Part shown: positions 2,897-40,954 of the stretch, piece after piece
Position numbering within the stretch: position 1 is the stretch's first letter
Layout: each line of letters opens with the position of its first letter
NCBI RefSeq assembly: GCF_003323745.1
Contig: NZ_QOIL01000021.1
Coordinates: 62,001-126,000 of the forward strand
Length of the DNA stretch: 64,000 nt
From: Sphaerisporangium album
Lineage (GTDB): Bacteria > Actinomycetota > Actinomycetes > Streptosporangiales > Streptosporangiaceae
Direction: 5' to 3'
Translations under genes and position numbers: made by a program
Notes under the pieces: generated by a model
Database searches by the model: none
Seen by the model: the letters and a program-made list of their open reading frames with translations, nothing else
What the model was told of the DNA's origin: nothing

Positions 2897-3618
2897 CGCT
2901 TTCCTTCCTCGGGTGGCCTCGCGGCCGAGTCGGTGTCATCGGGCGGATCGGCGGGTGTTAGCGCGGTGGTGAGCCGGCCGATCCGGGCGTGCAGGTCGGC
3001 GAAGGCCTCTTCGAACGCCTGATCGCTGCCGACGGCGACCGGGTCGGGCACCGACCAGTGCAGGTGCGGGCGATGTTCCAGCTGCTCGTAGGCGTTGTCG
3101 CAGACCGCCACGAGGAAGTCGCCGGGTTCGAGTGTTTGGTCCAGGTGTGCGGTGGCGCGCGGGTCCAGGCGCAATCCATGGCGACGGGCGGTGGCCAGAG
3201 CTCCGGGGTGTACCCGGGAGGCGGGTGCGGTCCCGGCCGATGCCGCGGGTACCGCGCTGGCCTGCTGCCACAGCGCGGCGGCGAGTTGGGAGCGGGCGGA
3301 GTTATGCGTGCAGACGAACAGCACCCGCGGCGCCGCCACGGAGACCGCCGCCGGGCCGAGGCCGGCCAGCGCCTGCGGGCGAAGCCGGACATAGCTGCGG
3401 CGTCGGTCGGCCTCAGATCGGGATCGTTCCACTACGCCGGCCTCCTGCAGTACGCGCAGGTGATGGGCCAGCAGGCTGGTGGACAGACCCGTCTGCTCGC
3501 CGAGCTCGCCCGGGGATCGATCGCCCAGCAGCAGTGCATCGGTCATGGCCAGCCTGACGGGCTCGGCCAACGCCGCATGCACGGCGGCACGTCTCTCGAT
3601 GCTCATTAGCTCAATCAT
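2893..3618 (-). CDS. ArsR-ArsC fusion: winged-helix repressor joined to LMW-phosphatase arsenate reductase
   Basis: Residues 1 to about 90 are an ArsR-type winged helix (LSTSLLAHHLRVLQEAGVVE) and residues 97 to about 220 an LMW-phosphatase/arsenate reductase domain with P-loop CTHNSARS and acid loop VPDPVAVGS. The DNA-binding half contains no cysteine, so it cannot use the usual ArsR thiol site. Any sensing must come through the enzymatic half or from a partner. Two starts are possible: ATG at 3618 or ATG at 3606. The second fits better because the left arm of an inverted repeat (3606-3614) covers the region between them. It heads a coupled pair with arsC on the minus strand. The acidic C-terminal tail (about 20 residues) is probably disordered. 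Confidence 0.88.
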   Translation of the reverse strand: MIELMSIERRAAVHAALAEPVRLAMTDALLLGDRSPGELGEQTGLSTSLLAHHLRVLQEAGVVERSRSEADRRRSYVRLRPQALAGLGPAAVSVAAPRVLFVCTHNSARSQLAAALWQQASAVPAASAGTAPASRVHPGALATARRHGLRLDPRATAHLDQTLEPGDFLVAVCDNAYEQLEHRPHLHWSVPDPVAVGSDQAFEEAFADLHARIGRLTTALTPADPPDDTDSAARPPEEGKR

Positions 3619-8519: not shown

Positions 8520-8564
8520 GGGCCGGTGCCGCACGCTGCTCCCGACACGTGAGGGAGCAGACAC

Positions 8565-10404: not shown

Positions 10405-11016
10405 ATGCGCATCTTCACAATGTCACTCATCGGCGCGGCGGCGATCGCGACGGCCGCGGGGGTGATCGGCCTCGGCGGCCCGGCCTACGCCGAGACCATC
10501 GTCAAGGTGACGAACTCCAGCTCCGTGGGTGCCCAGGGCTCCCACTACACGACCGTCAAGTGCCCTTCCACCTCGCCGTACGTCGTGTCCGCGTCGGCTT
10601 CATCCAAGTTCGCCGATGCCGCGGACTCCAAATCCCTCAGGTACAACAGCATCGACACGCTGCCGGACGGTCAGACGGTGAAGGTCGATTACCAGAACCT
10701 TCGCACCTACCAGGAGGACGCGAAGAAGCGGGTCGTCGTGACGGTCGATGTGACGGTGACCTGCTCGAACGTGGATCACGGGCGCCCGGCCACCTACGAC
10801 TTCGCGATGAAGAGCTTCGTGCCGCTCGGGGGGGACATCTGGGTGACCAGCCCCTGCCCGGCCAACAAGTGGGCGCAAAATTACCGGGAGACGCACTCGG
10901 ACTGGGTCACGGTCACCGACGAGTTCCGCGGTTTGACCAGTGCCTCGGTTCGCTACCACAACCCGGACTACCAGGTCCCGGGGGTCGGAGAGGTGACGGT
11001 CGTCTGTGGCGGATGA
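10405..11016 (+). CDS. Small secreted protein of unknown function
   Basis: This is a 203-residue precursor with a clear Sec signal peptide (MRIFTMSLIGAAAIATAAGV then GLGGPAYAE, cleavage after AYA). The mature part is beta-rich with four cysteines (KCPSTSP, TCSNV, SPCPANKW, VVCGG) that can form two disulfides. I recognise no catalytic motif. The start was chosen at ATG 10405 because GAGGGG precedes it and the signal peptide begins there. Two strong hairpins follow at 11043-11104, so it is probably monocistronic. Confidence 0.75.
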   Translation: MRIFTMSLIGAAAIATAAGVIGLGGPAYAETIVKVTNSSSVGAQGSHYTTVKCPSTSPYVVSASASSKFADAADSKSLRYNSIDTLPDGQTVKVDYQNLRTYQEDAKKRVVVTVDVTVTCSNVDHGRPATYDFAMKSFVPLGGDIWVTSPCPANKWAQNYRETHSDWVTVTDEFRGLTSASVRYHNPDYQVPGVGEVTVVCGG

Positions 11017-32157: not shown

Positions 32158-32480
32158 GGATCGCCGAGACCGAAGCCCGGCGTAAGGCCGAGCGGCTACG
32201 CCTGGACAGGATCGTCACCACCATGCCCAAACGACTCACCGAGGAGGAGATCGCGGCCATGACCGAGATGCTCGGGGACATGAGAAGGCTGCTCCGCAGT
32301 GCCGACCCTCAGGACAAGGGACAGGTGTACGGGCAGCTTGGGCTGCACCTCACCTATCAACCGGCCCAGAAAACAGTGATCGCCCGAGCTGAACTCGGGC
32401 GATCATGTAGCAAAGTGTGTCCGAGGGGCGACTCGAACCCTTCGCCCATCTCCTCAGCGCCCAACCAGACCCGTGGCTGA
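32154..32480 (+). pseudogene. C-terminal tail of a serine recombinase abutting a tRNA-like att site
   Basis: The plus frame encodes WIAETEARRKAERLRLDRIV, RLTEEEIAAMTEMLGDMRRL and YGQLGLHLTYQPAQKTVIAR, the coiled-coil and last strand of large serine recombinases of actinomycete elements. It then runs into CPRGDSNPS, the antisense translation of a tRNA 3' end, as such recombinases do when integrated. The catalytic domain is missing. A shorter homologous tail lies at 40784-40927 beside the intact tRNA-Leu. Confidence 0.75.
32417..32440. other. Left attachment-site copy (tRNA-Leu 3'-end repeat)
   Basis: These 24 bases match 40868-40891, the 3' end of tRNA-Leu(GAG), at 22 of 24 positions in the same orientation. 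The two mismatches are at the 13th and 18th bases. It contains the T-loop-like stretch (GAACCC on this strand) but no complete tRNA. Confidence 0.65.
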
Positions 32481-32580: not shown

Positions 32581-34779
32581 CTAGAAGGGCGCATCCTCGT
32601 CGGAAGGCGCCGTCGGGAAGAGCTCGCCCTGGGATTGCGACTCAAAGCCATCCTTCAAGCGAACCCAGCTGGTTTGGTTTCCACCGCTTCCAGCTCTGCG
32701 CTCAGACACCCACTGGTCAGGGTAGAGGCGGTCGAGCGCCTCCTTGACAAGGTCCATTCCCCACTGGCGGCCATCATCAATCCGTTTGGCATGATCGGGT
32801 GCCTTTTCCGCGAGCAGCCAGCCGATTCGACCCCACTTAATTCCCTCTGTGGTTCTAATCTTGTCTTGGAACTCCTGCTTGTCGCGCAGATGCACAATCG
32901 CGATGGCTTTGTCGTCCGCGCCCGGTGGTGCGGAATCCTCCTCAGCGGTAGCGATTGCCGATTCCTGTGGGTTGGTCGCCGCCAGGCTCGCCGCAGCGGC
33001 CCATGCCTCTTTTCGCCGCTCATCGAGGTGCGCCTTAGTCTCGGCGGCAAAGCTATCTGCGGCCTCCATCGAGTACCCCGGATCGATCTGCTCGTAGGAG
33101 TCATCGAAGCTCAGGACGCGGACGGGAACCGGATAGGGGCGGGAATGTGTATCAGTTCCTGGAGCGCTGGACCAGAAGATGCCGCTACCGACAAGTGGCT
33201 CGTTGAGCAGAGTAGCCAGGAGATCGTCTGAGAAGTGGGCGTTCGCCTTCTTGAGAGCATTGAGGTCTCCACCAGACAGCAGGTGGAACACGAAAAAATT
33301 ATCGCCCTGGCTGAGCAGTTCCTGTGGCAGACTGCCTGGCTGTTGCGTGATGAGCAGCGCGCCGAGATCGTACTTGCGACCTTCTTTGACCCAGGAGACG
33401 AACGGACCCTCCTCGTTCTGGTTCGAACCACCGAGGACAGACTGGGCTTCTTCGATCACGGCGATTGTGGGAATGGTCTTGGGCTCGGCCTCAGTGAACT
33501 GTGTCTGGTTATGCTCAAAAATGTCGCTGAGGATGACACCAGCGAGCTGGAGTCCCTGTTGTCCCCGCATTTGGGAGATGTCTACCACACAGAGCTTCCC
33601 TTGGCTTAGGCACTCCTTTAGGGCACTTAGCAGTTGACTGGCTGGGTCGTGAAGGGAATTGACCACCCGCGTCATGTTGCCAATGGCCGCCATCGTCTGC
33701 GCTTCGTCGTTCTTCGGGAGGTCAAGGAGCTCACGAACCCGAACCTGATCGGCTCCGAACTTTTCTGCGGCGATCAGGTCCACCAGCTCAGCCCACTTGA
33801 CGCCATTCAGAGACTTGAGCTTGACCATATTTTGTTGGTCCTGCTTTTCGGGAGGCAGCGCAATGCCTAGAACCCGCGCAGGGGAAAGCTCCTTGATGTT
33901 CAACTTAACGCCGTTGACCACAAAAGACTGGTAGAACGGACTTGGCCCCTTGCGGTTGGTGAAGACGACTAGCTTGTCCTTCAGGTGCGGGACGTCGCAC
34001 AGACCAGGCTTGCCACGGTGGTCAGGCCAGAAATATTCGCCGTCAGGATCGAAGATCACGGTTCCGACGTCTGCCTTCCGCCCGCCGCGACGATCAACTG
34101 TGGGCTGGTGCTCATATAGTGCAGAGAACAGTAGTTTGACCAGGTTGGACTTACCGAAGCCCGCGCGGGCAAAGACAAAGCTGCGTCGAGATACAAGTTT
34201 GTTGATCTGAAAGGTCGGCATGATCGCCGGATGCTGGACCACCATCCAGGAACTGTCGCCGATGCGTCGGTCATCCCCGGCATAGACGAATTCGCCGAAG
34301 GAGAGGTACCCAATTGGCACTGCTCCGCCATCGGTATCGTTGGCGTTGGTCACCTCAGCTAGCAGATCGTCCGTCAGTAGCGCGACCTGGGCGCCGACGT
34401 GCGGTAGACGCCGATGGCTGGGGACGAAAATGTACTTGTCCCCATCCCGTCTAAGGACGCCAAGGATGCGAATGTCGACCTTATATTTAAGGTAGCGCTC
34501 GCGTAGTTCATCGGGGATCGGCCTCTGATCCCGAACTGCGCGGGTGGCGTAATCCTCTCCAATTGGAGAAACCAGCCGGCCTTGCGAGGCGATGGTGGTG
34601 ATTCGACCGAGAATCGCTTCTCGTTCGTGCTCGAGTTGCACGAGGACGAACTGACCGTGCATGGCCATCGTCTGGAAGTCGTCGTGATGCGGCAGAACAA
34701 GGTCGGCGTGAAACTCCATGCCGCTTTCGGCGAAGCCGCGGAAGGTGCCGACAACCTTGTCACGATCGAACAGGCTCAT
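32581..34779 (-). CDS. HerA-like hexameric ATPase/DNA translocase
   Basis: This is a 732-residue protein of the HerA/FtsK superfamily. Residues 1 to about 180 hold the HAS-type beta-barrel (GTFRGFAESGMEFHADLVLP, ATRAVRDQRPIPDELRERYL). The RecA-like core has Walker A FARAGFGKSN (Lys210) and Walker B IPTIAVIEEAQS (Glu443/Glu444), with a polar sensor segment LLITQQPGSLPQELLSQGDN. The C-terminal 170 residues are an extra helical domain, acidic at the end. In archaea HerA drives NurA in DNA end resection, and in bacteria HerA partners Sir2 or DUF4297 effectors in phage defence. Here the NurA-like gene ends 41 bases upstream, so the pair should form one complex. Confidence 0.88.
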   Translation of the reverse strand: MSLFDRDKVVGTFRGFAESGMEFHADLVLPHHDDFQTMAMHGQFVLVQLEHEREAILGRITTIASQGRLVSPIGEDYATRAVRDQRPIPDELRERYLKYKVDIRILGVLRRDGDKYIFVPSHRRLPHVGAQVALLTDDLLAEVTNANDTDGGAVPIGYLSFGEFVYAGDDRRIGDSSWMVVQHPAIMPTFQINKLVSRRSFVFARAGFGKSNLVKLLFSALYEHQPTVDRRGGRKADVGTVIFDPDGEYFWPDHRGKPGLCDVPHLKDKLVVFTNRKGPSPFYQSFVVNGVKLNIKELSPARVLGIALPPEKQDQQNMVKLKSLNGVKWAELVDLIAAEKFGADQVRVRELLDLPKNDEAQTMAAIGNMTRVVNSLHDPASQLLSALKECLSQGKLCVVDISQMRGQQGLQLAGVILSDIFEHNQTQFTEAEPKTIPTIAVIEEAQSVLGGSNQNEEGPFVSWVKEGRKYDLGALLITQQPGSLPQELLSQGDNFFVFHLLSGGDLNALKKANAHFSDDLLATLLNEPLVGSGIFWSSAPGTDTHSRPYPVPVRVLSFDDSYEQIDPGYSMEAADSFAAETKAHLDERRKEAWAAAASLAATNPQESAIATAEEDSAPPGADDKAIAIVHLRDKQEFQDKIRTTEGIKWGRIGWLLAEKAPDHAKRIDDGRQWGMDLVKEALDRLYPDQWVSERRAGSGGNQTSWVRLKDGFESQSQGELFPTAPSDEDAPF

Positions 34780-34820
34780 TATTGTGTCATGCTCCGCAGA
34801 GGTCGGGAAGGTCGGGGGAA

Positions 34821-35942
34821 TTACTCATATCGGCGCGCGGCAACATCGGAGGCCAGCCGAAGTGCATCTACCACTGGTGCCTTAGTTTCGCCGACCTGTT
34901 CGCGGATGGCATCGACGAGGTTGTCCTCGATAATGTCCAAGTCTATGTCGGCAACACGAGAGAAGCTGTCGGCCTGTTGAATGCAGTTAGGGTAGAAGGG
35001 GATCGGAAACCCGGCTACGGCGTCGGCTTGCAGGTAGCCGAAGATTGCCTGAGCATCCTTATCCTGCCGGGACATAATGTCCACTGTCCATATCGGATCG
35101 CCCGAATATGGGCCGAAGCGGACAAAGTGCATCGATCCAAAGTTGAACTTTGGATCCTCGCCTACACCCTTATCGTCAACATCGCGGGTGTACTCGTCCC
35201 ACTGGTAGACATCCAGCATCTGCTTGGGCACCTTAACGAAGCACGGAGTGCCATTGTCGAGGACGGCAGAGAGGGATATCGCTAGACGATAGTACTCCAG
35301 CACTTGAGTCTTCTTCGCCAGCCCCACCAGCCACACTCGACAGCGGTCGCGCTCCCAGGTCTGCATAATCGCTTCGTGCATCAAATGGCCCATCTGCACG
35401 AAGTAGTCTTTAGCGAAAATTTTGCTCCGCAACAGACCATCACGAACAATGAGGGTGTCGGTGGCGTAGTCGCGATGGCAGATCAGGTCATACAAGGTGG
35501 CCCACTCGCAAAGATCTCTGAAGACGAGTACCCAGCTCGATGACTTACCTGACATCATCGGGGACAGCTCTTTGAGAGTGGTGACACCGAGTCCATTCAT
35601 CAATTTGCCGAGTGCGGTACGCGGAGACCCGTCGGCATTGAATTGACGCCGGCCCAGCTCTTCGATGTCTGAGAGGGGAGAGACTACTTCCAGGCACAGT
35701 TCTTTGCCCTTGGAGTCAACTACACGTACTACTTGCAGGTAGAACGGGTTGAAGGCAACCTTATTATTGCCACCATCCGAGGCCATCAGCGCCACAGACG
35801 TAGCGGATCGGGGCTTGATCACCTTCACGCTGCCAGCCAGGGACTTCGCTTCGGCGACAAGCTTGTCCAATTCCACGCGGCCGGCCTCTACTTGATCACC
35901 GATCTGGCGCTTCAGTTCCTTGATCTGATCGGCGTCGAACAT
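34821..35942 (-). CDS. NurA-domain nuclease, partner of HerA
   Basis: This is a 373-residue protein. The NurA fold is indicated by ALMASDGGNNKVAF (Asp56, the DG[S/G] metal motif), then LIVRDGLLRSK (Asp168), GLAKKTQVLEYYRLAI, and a C-terminal metal/aromatic region PIWTVDIMSRQDKDAQAIFG. These occur in the order seen in NurA exonucleases. An N-terminal coiled coil (IKELKRQIGDQVEAGRVELD) probably joins dimers or HerA. It lies between the methyltransferase and HerA genes on one strand, 114 and 41 bases apart. Fold assignment rests on motifs read by eye; the DNA strand preference and polarity cannot be read. Confidence 0.72.
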   Translation of the reverse strand: MFDADQIKELKRQIGDQVEAGRVELDKLVAEAKSLAGSVKVIKPRSATSVALMASDGGNNKVAFNPFYLQVVRVVDSKGKELCLEVVSPLSDIEELGRRQFNADGSPRTALGKLMNGLGVTTLKELSPMMSGKSSSWVLVFRDLCEWATLYDLICHRDYATDTLIVRDGLLRSKIFAKDYFVQMGHLMHEAIMQTWERDRCRVWLVGLAKKTQVLEYYRLAISLSAVLDNGTPCFVKVPKQMLDVYQWDEYTRDVDDKGVGEDPKFNFGSMHFVRFGPYSGDPIWTVDIMSRQDKDAQAIFGYLQADAVAGFPIPFYPNCIQQADSFSRVADIDLDIIEDNLVDAIREQVGETKAPVVDALRLASDVAARRYE

Positions 35943-36056
35943 GCGTCCCCCCGCGCCATGCGCTGTCCAGGCGAGTAATGAGCTGGTTTCAGCTACAGCA
36001 TGGCATGAAACGCCAACACGATGTGATCAGATTCGGGAAAGTAACCGTTTTGTCCC

Positions 36057-37187
36057 TTATTGTGGTACATCAGCTAGTTCTGCGATGACGTCGATCTCGT
36101 CGACCGCGGAGCCAGCCTTACCGAATTGCTCCGCCTGCCGGGCGCGCTTAGATGGAGTTCCTGCAATCCTCACGTCCTTGACGACCCAGCCAGCATGCGC
36201 CTTCTCCAGTGAAGCGAGTAGCATCCGCTCCGGATCAGTGCGGGCCGACGGTATGGTCCCGAAGCGGATCGCCAGGCGGGACTCTGGGTGACAGCGGCGA
36301 GCGGTAGCTGCCCACACCTCGGCTAGCGCTTCGATGAAGGCTTCTTGGCTCGGCTGACGGGCGATCTGACCGTCGGAGCCGTAGATAACCTCAGCGGGAC
36401 CACCAAGGAACCATGAGCGTAGCCATTGATCTTGAACGTATGTGCGCATCCCGTAATACGGTGGAGAGGTGACGACTAGATCAAAGTGTTGTCGCAACCT
36501 GTTCAGAGTCTGCACCGAGTCTCCTAGGTAGACCCTGCCGCCGTGAGCCGCCGGAGTAGCTGCCAACAGCCTTGCGGCCCGCCGCTCGATAACTTGGAGC
36601 GCCGGGACCCGTACCGGTTCCATGCCGCGCTGTTTCCAGAAGCGTACGGCGTATGCTGGTTTGGATGCATAAGTGCGCGGCATCTGATTGGACAGATAGG
36701 AAGGAAGGCCTTTATTTTGAGGCCCATGAAGGATTCCAAGCATCACCGCCCGCAGTATCGCGGCGGTGGGCGAGTTCAGCGACATTAGTGCGTTTCGAAG
36801 TATAACGAGCTCGCGCAGAGTATCCGCCTCGAAGCACCATCGCCAGAAGTCTCCATCGGGGATGTCGTCTGGTTCTCCTTCTTTGAGAATTCTTGTCGCC
36901 AGCCGCACCACGGCTCCTGGCGTTACCCGGACCAGTTTGGCCTGTGCAATAGCTGCAGCTACCGGATTGATATCAATGCCCACAGACGGGAGCCCGGCCA
37001 GTCGCGCGGCGTATAGCGTCGTCCCTCTGCCGCAGAATGGATCGAGTACGCGAGTCGCTTGCGTGAAGGCGGCCAGTTGTTGGAGCGGGAAGTCCAACGG
37101 AAACATTGTGTAGTATGGGCAGATGGCATTTAGCCGCAATGCGTCTTCGGGCCAGGTGGGGGGTGGGGCCAGATCCGTCGCCGTCAT
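36057..37187 (-). CDS. DNA methyltransferase (N6-adenine or N4-cytosine type)
   Basis: This is a 376-residue amino-methyltransferase. SAM motif I is VLDPFCGRGTT (about 48-57) with acidic loop GIDINP. Catalytic motif IV is TSPPYYGMRTY (about 240-250). About 180 residues between them probably form the target-recognition domain, an order like alpha- or gamma-class enzymes. SPPYY fits N4-cytosine or N6-adenine. It is first in the methyltransferase, NurA, HerA set and would mark self DNA. The upstream region is AT-rich, with GGATAATTAA as a possible -10 region on the minus strand. Confidence 0.88.
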   Translation of the reverse strand: MTATDLAPPPTWPEDALRLNAICPYYTMFPLDFPLQQLAAFTQATRVLDPFCGRGTTLYAARLAGLPSVGIDINPVAAAIAQAKLVRVTPGAVVRLATRILKEGEPDDIPDGDFWRWCFEADTLRELVILRNALMSLNSPTAAILRAVMLGILHGPQNKGLPSYLSNQMPRTYASKPAYAVRFWKQRGMEPVRVPALQVIERRAARLLAATPAAHGGRVYLGDSVQTLNRLRQHFDLVVTSPPYYGMRTYVQDQWLRSWFLGGPAEVIYGSDGQIARQPSQEAFIEALAEVWAATARRCHPESRLAIRFGTIPSARTDPERMLLASLEKAHAGWVVKDVRIAGTPSKRARQAEQFGKAGSAVDEIDVIAELADVPQ

Positions 37188-37413
37188 GGTAGCAATATAC
37201 AGGTTTAATTATCCCCTGCTATGCCATATGTTAGATGCTGCTTCTGAGCTTGGCGAGCTGTAGCCCACCCTTCGCGATCTCCTGCGGTAGGACCCAGAGT
37301 CTCCCTTGGGGGATCACCCTGGGTGCTCAAGTCTTGGTTGCGTACAGGGTCTACGTCTGAAGTGCAGTGCCAGGTGCACGCTCGAGACCTGGCCGTACGA
37401 TTGCACTCGAATC

Positions 37414-37923
37414 CTAGGCCTGATCTGAACGTCCATGCGCAGTTGTGCTGCTGACTCGCACGATATGGCTCATTTCGGCAGCATGTCGAGTGGTGTCTAT
37501 CAAATGCTTGCCATCGTGCTGCCGGACGGTGGGCGCCTGGGTGGGGTCCATTGCATCCACGATCCGCACAGCGAAGGCCTCCGATGCCAGAGTTCGTACT
37601 TCGTCGGCGGTCGCCCACAGGAAGGCACGAGACTCGTCGGTCTCCGCAAGACTGCCAGCGACTGCTCGGCAACGGAAGACCAAGGCCACGATACCGCGTG
37701 TCATATTTTTGTAGACGCCTGTCAGTGCGATGGGTCTGACCTCAAGGCCAGTTTCCTCCCTTACCTCCCGGACTAGGCCAGTCTCGATATCTTCGTCCAG
37801 TTCGAGGACTCCTCCGGGAGCTTCCCAGTGGCCGTTATCCCGCCGCTGGATAAGTAGCGCGCGCCTCTGGTCGTCGATGATTACGCCGGCCACGCTGACC
37901 GAGTGCAGGTGCTGGTGATCCAT
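37414..37923 (-). CDS. Nudix hydrolase
   Basis: This is a 169-residue protein with a perfect Nudix box, GVLELDEDIETGLVREVREETGLEV in pattern GX5EX7REUXEEXGU, beginning at about residue 38. The substrate is an unknown nucleotide or dinucleotide derivative. The gene is divergent from a GntR regulator at 37994. That GntR-Nudix pair is common in actinomycete integrative elements, where the Nudix protein is thought to affect element control. It has about 56% GC, like the rest of the island's left half. Confidence 0.9.
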   Translation of the reverse strand: MDHQHLHSVSVAGVIIDDQRRALLIQRRDNGHWEAPGGVLELDEDIETGLVREVREETGLEVRPIALTGVYKNMTRGIVALVFRCRAVAGSLAETDESRAFLWATADEVRTLASEAFAVRIVDAMDPTQAPTVRQHDGKHLIDTTRHAAEMSHIVRVSSTTAHGRSDQA

Positions 37924-37993: not shown

Positions 37994-38779
37994 GTGGCGG
38001 AGCTGCCGCTGCCGGAGCTGGACCCGCTCAGCGACCGGGCTGTGTTCCGCCAGATCGCCGATCACGTTCGTGAGGCCATCGAGCGCGGTGCCCTCCATGA
38101 GGGAGACAAGATTCCCTCAGAGGCGCAGCTTATGCAGCACTACGGCGTGGCTCGGATGACCATACGGAATGCCCTTCAGGTCCTACAGAGTGAGGGGCTC
38201 ACCGTTGCGGAGCACGGCCGCGGGGTGTTCGTGCGTTCTCGGCCACCTGTCCGCCGACTTGCCTCTGACCGCTTCGCGAGGCGCCACCGTGAGCGGGGTA
38301 AGGCCGCCTTCATCGTGGAGACGGAGGAGGCGGGTGGGAAGCCGTCCGTTGACTCGATCAAGGTGAGTGAGGCTGCGGCGCCCTCCGATGTTGCCGAGCG
38401 CCTGGAGCTTGCCGGTGGCGAACACGTGATCGTTCGATCGCGCCGGTACCTGATCAACGGGCAGCCGGTGGAGACGGCGGTCTCCTATCTGCCTTCCTCG
38501 ATCGCGCAGGGTACGCAGATCGAGCAGCCCGACAGCGGGCCTGGCGGGATCTATGCCCGTCTTGAGGAGCTTGGCTTCCGGCTTGATCGCTTCGTGGAGG
38601 AGATCCGGTCGCGGATGCCGTTTCGCGAAGAGGTGCGCGCCTTGAAGCTTGCGCCTGGAGTGCCGGTGTTTCACCTGATCCGTACGGCCTACGCGGCAGA
38701 CGGCCGGCCTGTCGAGGTGTGCGACACGGTGATGTCGAGCGACGCGTACGTGCTCTCGTACGAACTTCCTGCGCGATAG
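37994..38779 (+). CDS. GntR/HutC-family regulator (UTRA domain), KorSA-like role
   Basis: This is a 261-residue regulator. The winged helix at residues 15 to 85 (YGVARMTIRNALQVLQSEGL) is followed by a UTRA ligand domain (LELAGGEHVIVRSRRYLING, VFHLIRTAYAADGRPVEVCD). Such proteins (KorSA of pSAM2) repress transfer and maintenance genes of integrative elements. An inverted repeat overlaps a promoter just downstream (38783-38837), so it probably represses the whiB-like and Spd-like genes as well as itself. The start is GTG 37994 after GAGGAG. Confidence 0.9.
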   Translation: MAELPLPELDPLSDRAVFRQIADHVREAIERGALHEGDKIPSEAQLMQHYGVARMTIRNALQVLQSEGLTVAEHGRGVFVRSRPPVRRLASDRFARRHRERGKAAFIVETEEAGGKPSVDSIKVSEAAAPSDVAERLELAGGEHVIVRSRRYLINGQPVETAVSYLPSSIAQGTQIEQPDSGPGGIYARLEELGFRLDRFVEEIRSRMPFREEVRALKLAPGVPVFHLIRTAYAADGRPVEVCDTVMSSDAYVLSYELPAR

Positions 38780-38782
38780 GGC

Positions 38783-38837
38783 TTGACCAACTCGTCTAGA
38801 GGAGCCATAACGGGAAGGCAAACTCCTCTAGTCGAGT
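38783..38837 (+). promoter_or_regulatory. Promoter with inverted-repeat operator for the transfer genes
   Basis: TTGACC at 38783-38788 and CATAAC at 38807-38812 are spaced by 18 bases. Arms 38790-38804 (ACTCGTCTAGAGGAG) and 38823-38837 are reverse complements at 14 of 15 positions. The first arm lies inside the promoter spacer, a typical place for GntR-family repression. Confidence 0.6.
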
Positions 38838-38959
38838 AGGTGTGTTGGTCGAAGTTCGGCCCTCGGCGAGGAGTGGCAGACCAAAGCGGCTCCGGTGCTG
38901 CAACACCGGAGTCGCGAGACACCGGGTCAGTCCACCTCGGCGAAAGGAGATCAGACCCG

Positions 38960-39353
38960 ATGCCCAACATCTTCGCACCCCTGCTCAAGGGCGTTTACGC
39001 CCAGACCACGAGGGATCTGCACCGGCGGGTCATCGTGGACGGCTTGTGCGTCGGGACGGATGAGCCCGACGCGTGGTTTCCGCGTGAGCCGCCCGAGTTC
39101 AACGGGGGCAGCCCCGAAGCACTGGCGGAGAAGCGCGCTGCGTACGAGGCGGTCGCTGGACCTCTGTGGGCCGTGTCCGGTCCGGGCTGAGTGCCTGGAG
39201 CTGGCGCTTCGGGAGGAGATCGTCCTTCCTCGCACCTGGGTTCATGGCATCCGGGGCGGTACGGTGCCATGGCAGCGGCTGAACCTCATCCGCCAGCGAC
39301 AGCGGGCCGTCCAGCGCGAGGCCGCCGGGGCCGGCAGGGCGGTGAGCGCCTGA
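38960..39353 (+). pseudogene. WhiB-like iron-sulfur regulator gene with a frameshift
   Basis: From ATG 38960 the frame reads through DGLCVGTDEPDAWFPREPPE, then drifts to a stop at 39190. From about 39159 the next frame gives DLCGPCPVRAECLELALREE, then VHGIRGGTVPWQRLN, and stops at 39351-39353. Together they make a complete Wbl protein of about 130 residues with four cluster cysteines (one in GLCVG, three in CGPCPVRAEC). Removing one G at 39158-39159 restores the frame (A-D-L-C). The final stop overlaps the next ATG (TGATG). This is a single-base frameshift or a sequencing error. Confidence 0.75.
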
Positions 39354-40741
39354 TGTCCGAGCCGACGACACTGTGGCCCTCGGCCCCGCCGCGCGCCGAA
39401 CCGCAGCATCGGCCGAGCAGCAAGGCCGAGAAGCTGGCACTGGCGGCGAAGGCCGCCGCCGATGTCCGGGCCTACGACACCAACCCTGACGTGATCGCCT
39501 ACCGCATCGAGCGGATGAGAACGCGCGTCGACCGGCTGATCTGGACTGGGCTCGTCCTCGGCCTGGCCTTCACCGCGGCCAACGTCCAGGCGTTCGCCGC
39601 GCGCGGCGCCGAGGTCGGATCGATCGAGTGGTGCACCGCCTGGTTGCTCGACCCGATGGTGTCCCTGGTTCTCGTGGGCGTGCTGCTCGGAGAGCAGGTC
39701 ATCGCCCGGCACCAGATCAAGGCCGGCCCGTGGGTGCGCCGGACCAATTGGGTCGCCCTCGGCTGTACCTACGCGATGAACACCTGGTCGGCCTGGGCGT
39801 CGCTGGATCCCTCGCTGATTCTGCTGCACTCGGTGCCGCCGGCGATCGTGTTCTGTGCGGCCGAGGCCGTGACGGACCTGCGGCACTGGATCACCGAGGC
39901 CGTGCGCCGAGCCTACCGGGCGGCGGCCGAGCGGCTGCACGGGCTGTCGTCCGATGCGGGGCCGACCCGCACGGTCGTGGACCGTGCGGATGCGCCGAGG
40001 CCCGGGACCGCACGGTTGCAGCGGGACCGTGCGGTGCTGGCCCGCACGGTCGTCCCTTCCCCGGCGACTGTGCGGGCCGAGAGCCTCCGTGCGGATTCGG
40101 ACCTTACGGTGGAGGACCGCACGGACGATGGCGTGCGCGGGTTCTCCGAGGAGGACCGTGCGGACAAGCCCAGCGCGCCGGTCGAGCAGGCCGCCTACCG
40201 GGCCGCCGTGGTCGCCGAGCTCCGCGAGGAGATGCTCGCGGCGATCGAGCGGGGCGAGAAGTACGAGGTCACCTGGCGGGACGTCGAACAGCGCACCGGT
40301 TACCGCAAGCGGTGGTGTGAGGGCGTCCTGGCCGAAGCCCGCCGCGGACTGCTGTCGATGGACGGGACGGTTTTCGACGAGCTGGCTGGCGACTCTGCGA
40401 ACGCTGACGCGGTGGGTCCGCATGGTGGCCTGGATCCTGCGGAAGCCGACCCGCACGGTGGTGCCTCTGCCTCCGAGGTAGGCCCGCACGGTGGTCCGCA
40501 CCGTGCGGAGGGTCATCCGCAGAGTCAGGGCGACCGTGCGGAGCCGCTGCCGGACCGTGCGGACCCAGGGCGCAAGGCCGTGGCCTACGACCGCACGTCC
40601 ATGGGTGAGCCTGCGGAGGCACCCTTCCAGGTGGACACCGTCCGAGAGGTGCGCGGTCAGGCTGACGCCGGTACGGGAGCGGCGCGGTCCGAGCCTGCGA
40701 CGACGGAGGCAGTCCCGTACGCCGAGGGGGTCGCGGCATGA
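39353..40741 (+). CDS. Spd/DUF2637-like four-TM membrane protein with long low-complexity tail
   Basis: This is a 462-residue protein. About residues 50 to 190 hold four membrane segments (LIWTGLVLGLAFTAANVQAF, WLLDPMVSLVLVGVLLGEQV, WVALGCTYAMNTWSAWASL, ILLHSVPPAIVFCAAEAV), as in plasmid-spread proteins of actinomycetes. The tail of 260 residues is charged and repetitive because the DNA carries 13 octamers CCGCACGG/CCGTGCGG. A helical segment in the tail (EVTWRDVEQRTGYRKRWCEG) resembles a small DNA-binding helix pair. ATG 39353 overlaps the whiB-like stop. The likely role is intramycelial spread of the element. Confidence 0.72.
   Translation: MSEPTTLWPSAPPRAEPQHRPSSKAEKLALAAKAAADVRAYDTNPDVIAYRIERMRTRVDRLIWTGLVLGLAFTAANVQAFAARGAEVGSIEWCTAWLLDPMVSLVLVGVLLGEQVIARHQIKAGPWVRRTNWVALGCTYAMNTWSAWASLDPSLILLHSVPPAIVFCAAEAVTDLRHWITEAVRRAYRAAAERLHGLSSDAGPTRTVVDRADAPRPGTARLQRDRAVLARTVVPSPATVRAESLRADSDLTVEDRTDDGVRGFSEEDRADKPSAPVEQAAYRAAVVAELREEMLAAIERGEKYEVTWRDVEQRTGYRKRWCEGVLAEARRGLLSMDGTVFDELAGDSANADAVGPHGGLDPAEADPHGGASASEVGPHGGPHRAEGHPQSQGDRAEPLPDRADPGRKAVAYDRTSMGEPAEAPFQVDTVREVRGQADAGTGAARSEPATTEAVPYAEGVAA
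39967..40562. repeat. Array of 13 exact octamers CCGCACGG / CCGTGCGG
   Basis: CCGCACGG begins at 39967, 40008, 40042, 40117, 40451 and 40484. Its reverse complement CCGTGCGG begins at 39982, 40027, 40087, 40156, 40501, 40534 and 40555. Near-copies lie at about 40418 and 40590. Spacing is irregular, and two clusters are separated by a repeat-free 290 bases. Copies fall in two codon phases (Asp-Arg-Ala-Asp versus Pro-His-Gly-Gly), so the DNA, not the peptide, is conserved. It resembles the eight-base TraB recognition sites in clt loci of Streptomyces plasmids. Confidence 0.8.
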
Positions 40742-40783
40742 GCGCCCGGGTGCGTACGACGCTGACGCTGTGGAGCGCCGACC

Positions 40784-40927
40784 GGCCTGAGGCTGATCTA
40801 CAAGCCCGCACAACGAAAAGTCCTGGTCGCCGCTTCCAGTGACCAGGACCATATGGGGTATGAGTTGGTGTCCGAGGGGGGACTTGAACCCCCATGCCCC
40901 GTAAAGGGCACTAGCACCTCAAGCTAG
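40784..40927 (+). pseudogene. Second serine recombinase C-terminal tail, antisense into tRNA-Leu
   Basis: The plus frame encodes GLRLIYKPAQRKVLVAASSD, then continues into the tRNA antisense (VSEGGLEPPCP) and stops at 40925-40927. It aligns with the other tail (GLHLTYQPAQKTVIARAELG) at 32340. Everything upstream of GLRL has been lost. Confidence 0.7.
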
Positions 40928-40954
40928 CGCGTCTGCCTATTCCGCCACCCGGAC
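40866..40954 (-). tRNA. tRNA-Leu (anticodon GAG)
   Basis: Minus-strand cloverleaf: acceptor GTCCGGG pairs with CTCGGAC, discriminator A, encoded CCA at 40866-40868. The anticodon stem CTAGC/GCTAG encloses loop TTGAGGT, giving anticodon GAG. It has a long variable arm (class II) and T-arm GGTTCAAGTCC. Its 3' end is the integration target of the island to its left. Confidence 0.96.
40868..40891. other. Right attachment-site copy within tRNA-Leu
   Basis: This is the 24-base 3' segment of tRNA-Leu(GAG) repeated at 32417-32440 with two mismatches. It marks the island's right boundary and leaves the tRNA intact. Confidence 0.65.

Follow-up and report, generated by a model that had tools for sequence, protein, structure and literature searches.

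Why should a gene for a predicted spread (Spd-like) protein carry thirteen copies of one octamer within 596 bases of its coding sequence, and what reads them? The gene (39353–40741, + strand; 462 aa) lies in the window, as we call the whole 64-kb stretch of DNA analyzed here, and overlaps the preceding ORF by 1 base. A preliminary description, made from the letters of the sequence, had reported six copies on one strand and seven on the other, had placed them within a Spd-like gene of a conjugative-type element, and had expected well under one copy by chance; each of these statements was upheld. An exact word count found 13 copies of CCGCACGG or its reverse complement CCGTGCGG at 39967–40562 (6 on the + strand and 7 on the − strand), and the window as a whole contained 21, with 8 outside this interval. 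The host genome, counted over 62 unordered contigs, contained 1743 copies in 9,305,065 bp (835 + and 908 −), a density that predicts 0.11 copies per 596 bp against the 13 observed; the word is thus not equally dense elsewhere. The Poisson probability of the array was about 6e-23, for a motif and a region that were both picked after being seen. Tight pairs, defined as CCGCACGG followed within 30 bp by CCGYRCGG, occurred elsewhere in the genome as well (46 rows genome-wide with both strands listed, 9 of them from the window array), and among the places listed, chains of several pairs were found only at the window array. No description of such an array was found in the open-access literature searched, and it may have been mentioned elsewhere.

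The octamer is a near-palindrome, CCG-CA-CGG, and its two orientations therefore amount merely to CA or TG at the center; 11 of the 13 copies extend by a T to CCGCACGGT. Two groups of copies flank the part of the gene that encodes a predicted helix-turn-helix (HTH) domain, eight before it and five after it. Group 1 (39967–40163) consists of exact copies at 39967+, 39982−, 40008+, 40027−, 40042+, 40087−, 40117+, and 40156−, with a one-mismatch copy at 40068. Group 2 (40451–40562) consists of exact copies at 40451+, 40484+, 40501−, 40534−, and 40555−, with one-mismatch copies at 40418, 40496, and 40591. The octamer was absent from the promoter regions upstream of spd and of the regulatory gene gntR. 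The copies occupy all three codon phases (10, 1, and 2 copies), one more than the two phases given in the preliminary description. When the codons of spd were shuffled synonymously, preserving the protein and the codon counts within the gene, the shuffled genes contained a mean of 2.40 and a maximum of 8 octamers, and 0 of 2000 reached 13. The array is therefore kept by selection acting on DNA, as had been proposed.

The predicted protein matched neither a Pfam family, at E values up to 10, nor an NCBIfam family, at E values up to 1. Hydrophobic peaks were found near aa 62–83, 94–112, and 155–173. An AlphaFold model built on a 10-sequence alignment, with a mean pLDDT of only 56.1 overall, showed long helices in a predicted membrane domain at about aa 24–201 (39422–39955) and a three-helix HTH domain at about aa 276–346 (40178–40390), for which pLDDT was 90–95 across aa 281–330. 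The motif KRWCEG of the HTH domain corresponds to aa 319–324. The model was disordered at aa 205–265 and from aa 338 onward, and the HTH domain retained its shape when modeled by itself (mean pLDDT 79.4). Spd is thus predicted to consist of a membrane domain joined by a disordered linker to an HTH domain, and to end in a disordered tail. Twelve of the 13 octamers start where pLDDT is below 50, and the remaining one starts at aa 268. Structure searches with the HTH domain gave weak matches, mostly to GntR-type HTH domains (best Z 5.0, to 3eet_A), and Foldseek gave E values of 1.5 or worse, with none below 1. A sequence search of the PDB with the HTH profile gave three matches, the best at E 0.0036 to a designed protein, none of them credible; a Pfam scan of 11 Spd HTH domains likewise gave nothing credible.

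The element that carries spd lies beside a tRNA-Leu (GAG) gene (40866–40954, − strand) whose 3′ end faces it. An att-like copy of this 3′ end at 32417–32443 is identical to 40868–40894 at 22 of 27 positions, a diverged direct repeat for which the next best place in the window scored 17 of 27, and the two copies enclose about 8.4 kb. Between the distal att-like site and gntR, four cargo genes (32581–37923, − strand) encode a HerA/DUF87-like ATPase, an unnamed ORF, a type II DNA methyltransferase, and a NUDIX protein; the last matched PADLOC PDC-S07, and weak mads_8 and mads_2 matches in the cargo suggest a possible defense module. A GntR/UTRA regulator gene (37994–38779, +) and a small ORF with a weak WhiB match (38895–39353, +) precede spd. 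Directly after spd is the start of an SsgA-like gene (40738–40842, +) that is broken after about 20 codons; the fragment is too short for tblastn, and its likeness was judged by eye against L023. An SsgA-like gene directly follows spd in relatives L032, L033, L034, L040, and L043 as well. The gene set of an actinomycete integrative and conjugative element (AICE) comprises an integrase, replication functions, and traB between att sites. The window element has the tRNA-Leu gene, the att-like repeat, gntR, and spd, and the scan of its ORFs revealed no integrase, rep, or traB; it is therefore a truncated AICE-type element at tRNA-Leu, either a remnant or helper-dependent.

Relatives of Spd were found in 8 of 41, 8 of 150, and 9 of 200 genomes, in sets that overlap and include the window's own genome. 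The genome contigs gave 215 Spd loci, of which 80 were kept. Searches by genus gave 1 of 54 and 2 of 16 genomes with members, all previously known. Plasmid records contained five relatives, all from Pseudonocardia and matching the N-terminal part only; viral contigs contained one locus, which was the Nonomuraea element L037 (identical match coordinates), and phage records contained no Spd relative. Besides the window, ten relatives encode a full Spd of the same HTH type (L032, L033, L034, L035, L036, L037, L038, L039, L040, and L141). Two elements were fetched repeatedly (L010/L023/L034 and L011/L024/L040), and each was counted once.

Eight of the ten relatives have an array of their own. The spd ORFs of L032 and L033 contain 7 and 5 copies of CCGCACGG, respectively, and those of L034, L035, L036, L037, L040, and L141 contain 11, 6, 13, 7, 15, and 7 copies, respectively, of CCGTACGG, which is a perfect palindrome. 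In each of these eight genes, the observed count was reached by no more than one of the 2000 synonymous shuffles. The arrays occupy the same place in spd as the window array; copies run past the spd stop codon in L033 and L036, and some octamers of L036 lie inside its HTH-coding part. Relatives do not conserve the linker peptides that surround the octamers, and therefore the word was kept while the peptide was not. This is the opposite of the outcome, a kept peptide and a lost DNA motif, that the preliminary description had named as contradicting its reading. Two Actinomadura loci, L038 and L039, contained 3 and 1 exact copies of CCGCACGG, numbers reached by 55 and 758 of 2000 shuffles and thus not significant; both have an RW.EG HTH but just degenerate CCGCAC words at spd.

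Comparison of the HTH domains with the words showed that HTH type matched word in nine of the nine genes with a significant array: CCGCACGG occurs with RW.EG (window, L032, and L033), and CCGTACGG occurs with SW.EK (L034, L035, L036, L037, L040, and L141). On a tree of the membrane domain, for which L038 and L039 were assigned to the CCGCACGG users, three changes of word were counted, and the CCGTACGG users did not group together. The hypothesis of a single clade of CCGTACGG users gave a p-AU of 0.0425 for a group named after the tree was seen, and independent HTH–word pairs numbered one on well-supported branches and three on all branches, so few that the comparison has low power. These sequence comparisons suggest that the spd word tracks Spd's own HTH, with few independent changes.

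A survey of 87 distinct loci (from 92 ids; duplicates and ids with no hit were left out) yielded five named HTH classes, a small class-B variant, and 10 unclassed loci, mostly without an array. Densities of the class words at spd genes of their own class, measured in the same 87-locus data from which the words were chosen, were 4.65/kb against 0.121 elsewhere for CCGCACGG (33 copies at 5 loci), 7.50/kb against 0.077 for CCGTACGG (63 copies at 6 loci), 1.82/kb against 0.103 for CGTTCACG (109 copies at 56 loci), 1.70/kb against 0.257 for GCTGGTCC (13 copies at 6 loci), and 5.0/kb against 0.105 for CGCGACCG (7 copies at 1 locus). Large enrichments thus fell on the class–word diagonal and other words remained near background, which gives at least five HTH classes with five words across the survey. 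Class B includes many closely related loci whose sites occupy fixed codon positions; there, too, synonymous shuffles, covering 69 of 70 loci, gave a mean of 15.9 in-ORF sites and a largest value of 29 in 500 shuffles, compared to 70 observed. Read by eye, the C-termini of class-B Spd proteins appear related to the window HTH.

We consider it fairly probable that Spd binds DNA sequence-specifically while anchored in the membrane and that the array is its own address. Its HTH domain would bind the octamers within its own gene, and the palindromic or near-palindromic form of the word makes a dimer the probable binding form; the DNA encoding the two disordered stretches houses the octamers. Spd bound to the octamers would tether the element's DNA, at spd, to the membrane, and the tether may serve to pick out the DNA that is to spread from one compartment to the next or be passed to TraB, or may keep that DNA stable. 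With reader and address in one reading frame, the two would move and change specificity together, and each element would thereby have a private address. A broader proposal, to which we give somewhat less than an even chance, is that actinobacterial conjugative elements use such "reader plus address" spread genes, distinct from TraB/clt, as single-gene cassettes of specificity. According to a review (PMC12857230), transfer within the mycelium requires Spd proteins, which are inserted in the membrane, and the present findings bear on how Spd recognizes which DNA to move through the mycelium. If Spd is indeed the reader, TraB and Spd would each have an address of their own on an element; the spd reading frame would offer a clean case of a DNA target evolving within the gene of the protein that reads it; and disordered linkers would serve as free space for a DNA target.

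The preliminary description had instead read the octamers as a clt-like or translocase-loading site, that is, as TraB recognition sequences by which TraB would load on the spd gene. The array does resemble the clt loci of pSVH1, pJV1, and pWTY27, described in part in PMC3583192, as a cluster of about 8-bp words within a transfer region; the pJV1 clt repeats start with CCGCACA, near CCGCACGG (PMC3583192), and the Spd HTH gave a weak hhalign match to the C-terminus of one TraB type (E 0.012, probability 3.5). The cluster of short repeats is thus present; the clt position, beside a tra gene, is not shared by the spd array, and relatives carry an array with another word there. Five of the ten relatives (L034, L036, L037, L038, and L039) encode a t1/t2-type TraB (two related types), and each has an array of a non-spd word directly 3′ of traB, clear in four and weak in L038. 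The word is GGTGTCAC(G) in L034 (6 exact 8-mers, +66 to +216), GGGTCGAC in L036 (8 occurrences including overlapping palindrome halves, +10 to +84), and CCTCTACC/CCCTCTAC in L037 (5 each, +29 to +166); CGTGACA occurs five times in L038 and six times in L039. The L038 array scored 4.7, near the background of about 4 in loci lacking an array, and was counted mainly because its word repeats that of L034 and L039. In all five loci, the 600 bp 3′ of traB were free of spd octamers. The traB-side region contains TGACACC six times in L034 (within its word), twice in L038, and three times in L039; this is the DC1 repeat of the pWTY27 clt, which adjoins traA and was footprinted by TraA (PMC3583192, in the parts available). 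With another word 3′ of traB, the role of clt is therefore already taken in these relatives.

The spd word and the traB-side word also appear, from their distribution over these loci, to vary independently. L034, L036, and L037 have CCGTACGG in common in spd and differ in their traB-side words (GGTGTCAC, GGGTCGAC, and CCCTCTAC); conversely, L034, L038, and L039 have CGTGACA in common beside traB and differ in Spd class. The TraB C-termini of the CCGTACGG users L034, L036, L037, and L040 were unlike each other when compared by eye, and the earlier expectation that the word would match a cognate TraB domain failed on the first three of these loci. Near-palindromic words would, in addition, offer a motor no direction. 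A separate ACCCGTCAC array 3′ of traB was found in class-B loci such as L050, L067, and L100, which carry both arrays; two-array elements are therefore not special to the window's family. Loci with a third type of traB (L024/L040 and L043/L142) have no clear traB-side array, so their spd array may act as the clt, and no traB was found in the examined DNA of L032, L033, L035, and L141. On this evidence, we regard a clt function of the spd array as unlikely.

An autoregulatory role, in which Spd or another protein of the element would bind inside spd and slow spd–tra transcription with no handling of DNA, accounts for sites in a transcribed part of the operon and for a reader and sites that share one gene. 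Up to 15 sites over hundreds of coding bases exceed what a promoter operator needs, and the promoter regions of gntR and spd lack the octamer, and we find this role improbable. Operators for the upstream GntR/UTRA (KorSA-like) regulator are a very unlikely reading of the array, even though GntR dimers bind palindromes, the Spd HTH model weakly resembles GntR-type domains, and the regulator is 89–90% identical to those of L032 and L033 and thus tracks the word within the CCGCACGG group. The regulator has its own candidate operator, a conserved pair of palindromes (CTCGTCTAGAGGAG/CTCCTCTAGTCGAG) that differs from the octamer, lies between gntR and spd at 38790–38837, and is common to the window, L032, and L033. 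Among the CCGTACGG users the HTH domains of the regulators differ widely and do not track the word, and L036 and L141 show only about 67–75 aa of a GntR HTH. The GntR operator reading was rejected on these two grounds, the different palindrome pair in the promoter and the lack of tracking.

A site for a host factor (FtsK loading, a nucleoid protein, or methylation) would fit the fact that both words are ordinary chromosomal 8-mers in the host, with CCGCACGG present 1743 times. We hold it to be highly improbable: clustering is confined to this gene in the genome listing, the choice of word varies among elements of the same family in step with Spd, and the word is near-palindromic and not polar. 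The KOPS/SRS octamers read by FtsK and SpoIIIE are polar and were rejected as a model for the array, which has 6 + and 7 − copies of a near-palindromic word in 596 bp and, in relatives, the palindromic CCGTACGG; the preliminary description had rightly set the array apart from KOPS on this point. Finally, an artifact of peptide or codon usage, whereby a low-complexity linker (DRAD, RTE, and PHGG) rich in R, A, T, D, and E and written in biased codons would yield the word by itself, agrees with 10 of 13 copies in one phase and is scarcely credible, and it was rejected, given that synonymous shuffles keeping protein and codon counts never exceeded 8, that three phases and several peptides are involved, and that copies extend beyond the stop codon in L033 and L036.

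An address of Spd within its own gene has a close counterpart in SpdA2 of pIJ101, which binds a 12-bp palindrome, sps, within its own coding region; loss of SpdA2 or sps affects plasmid stability and not transfer (PMC4170104, in the parts available). In both cases palindromes are repeated in the spd gene that encodes the reader, which for the window is the putative one. According to the same parts of PMC4170104, SpdA proteins are 117–163 aa long with a conserved N-terminal DNA-binding part, sps (CGTCACGTGACG) is present in 1–3 copies and is the same in many plasmids, and in most SpdA proteins the sps word can also be read as the peptide motif SRDD/E. Compared by description with these proteins, the window Spd differs in its 462 aa, predicted membrane helices, and C-terminal HTH, and its family differs in having an octamer, in 5–15 copies, that varies between elements with the HTH. 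SpdB2 of pSVH1, an integral membrane protein that binds dsDNA, oligomerizes, and interacts with TraB (PMC4170104), is similar, as far as its description goes, in being a membrane spread protein with DNA binding; its reported binding is non-specific, and no address array is described for it in the parts of PMC4170104 covered. Matches to sps within 2 mismatches occurred in the window only at 8543 and 45355, outside the element. By analogy, the window system may be a variant that follows the same principle as SpdA2/sps and is new in its protein, its copy number, and its element-specific word. In ParB–parS systems, the replicon that encodes an HTH protein also bears clustered sites for it; the window sites differ from these and other plasmid centromeres in that they fall within the gene for their putative reader, itself a predicted membrane protein.

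Inspection of the relatives revealed several further repeats. In the class-B loci L045–L111 (Pseudonocardiaceae and kin), CGTTCACG/CGTGAACG, which resemble CCGT..ACGG halves plus two extra bases, are concentrated at spd and about 160 bp beyond it. L025, L042, and other loci with IAGLR..GH Spd tails have 13 copies of GCTGGTCC and 12 of CTGGTCCT at or just after spd, over 6 loci. The Spd of Nonomuraea terrae (L043) has a different HTH, and its linker-coding DNA (10650–10809) contains seven copies of CGCGACCG in both orientations; CGGTCGC occurs in all three phases (12 copies, compared to a shuffle mean of 4.19). A metagenome-assembled genome of Streptosporangiaceae (L041, 986–1354) has GTACCCG repeats in and after its Spd gene, most of which share one strand and one phase, and a peptide origin is therefore possible. 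A ParA-like ATPase is encoded near the spd with a CCGTACGG array in Sphaerisporangium fuscum (L024, 13790–14773). Compact repeats away from spd, perhaps replication iterons, were observed in L071, L079, L094, L098, L104, and L091, examples being 8 copies of CGGTAACC, 10 of GCCGTACC, 9 of AAACCCCG, and 14 of CCGGTGAA. Lastly, L023 contains ACGTGCCG ten times in 82 bp at 3309–3392, outside its element.
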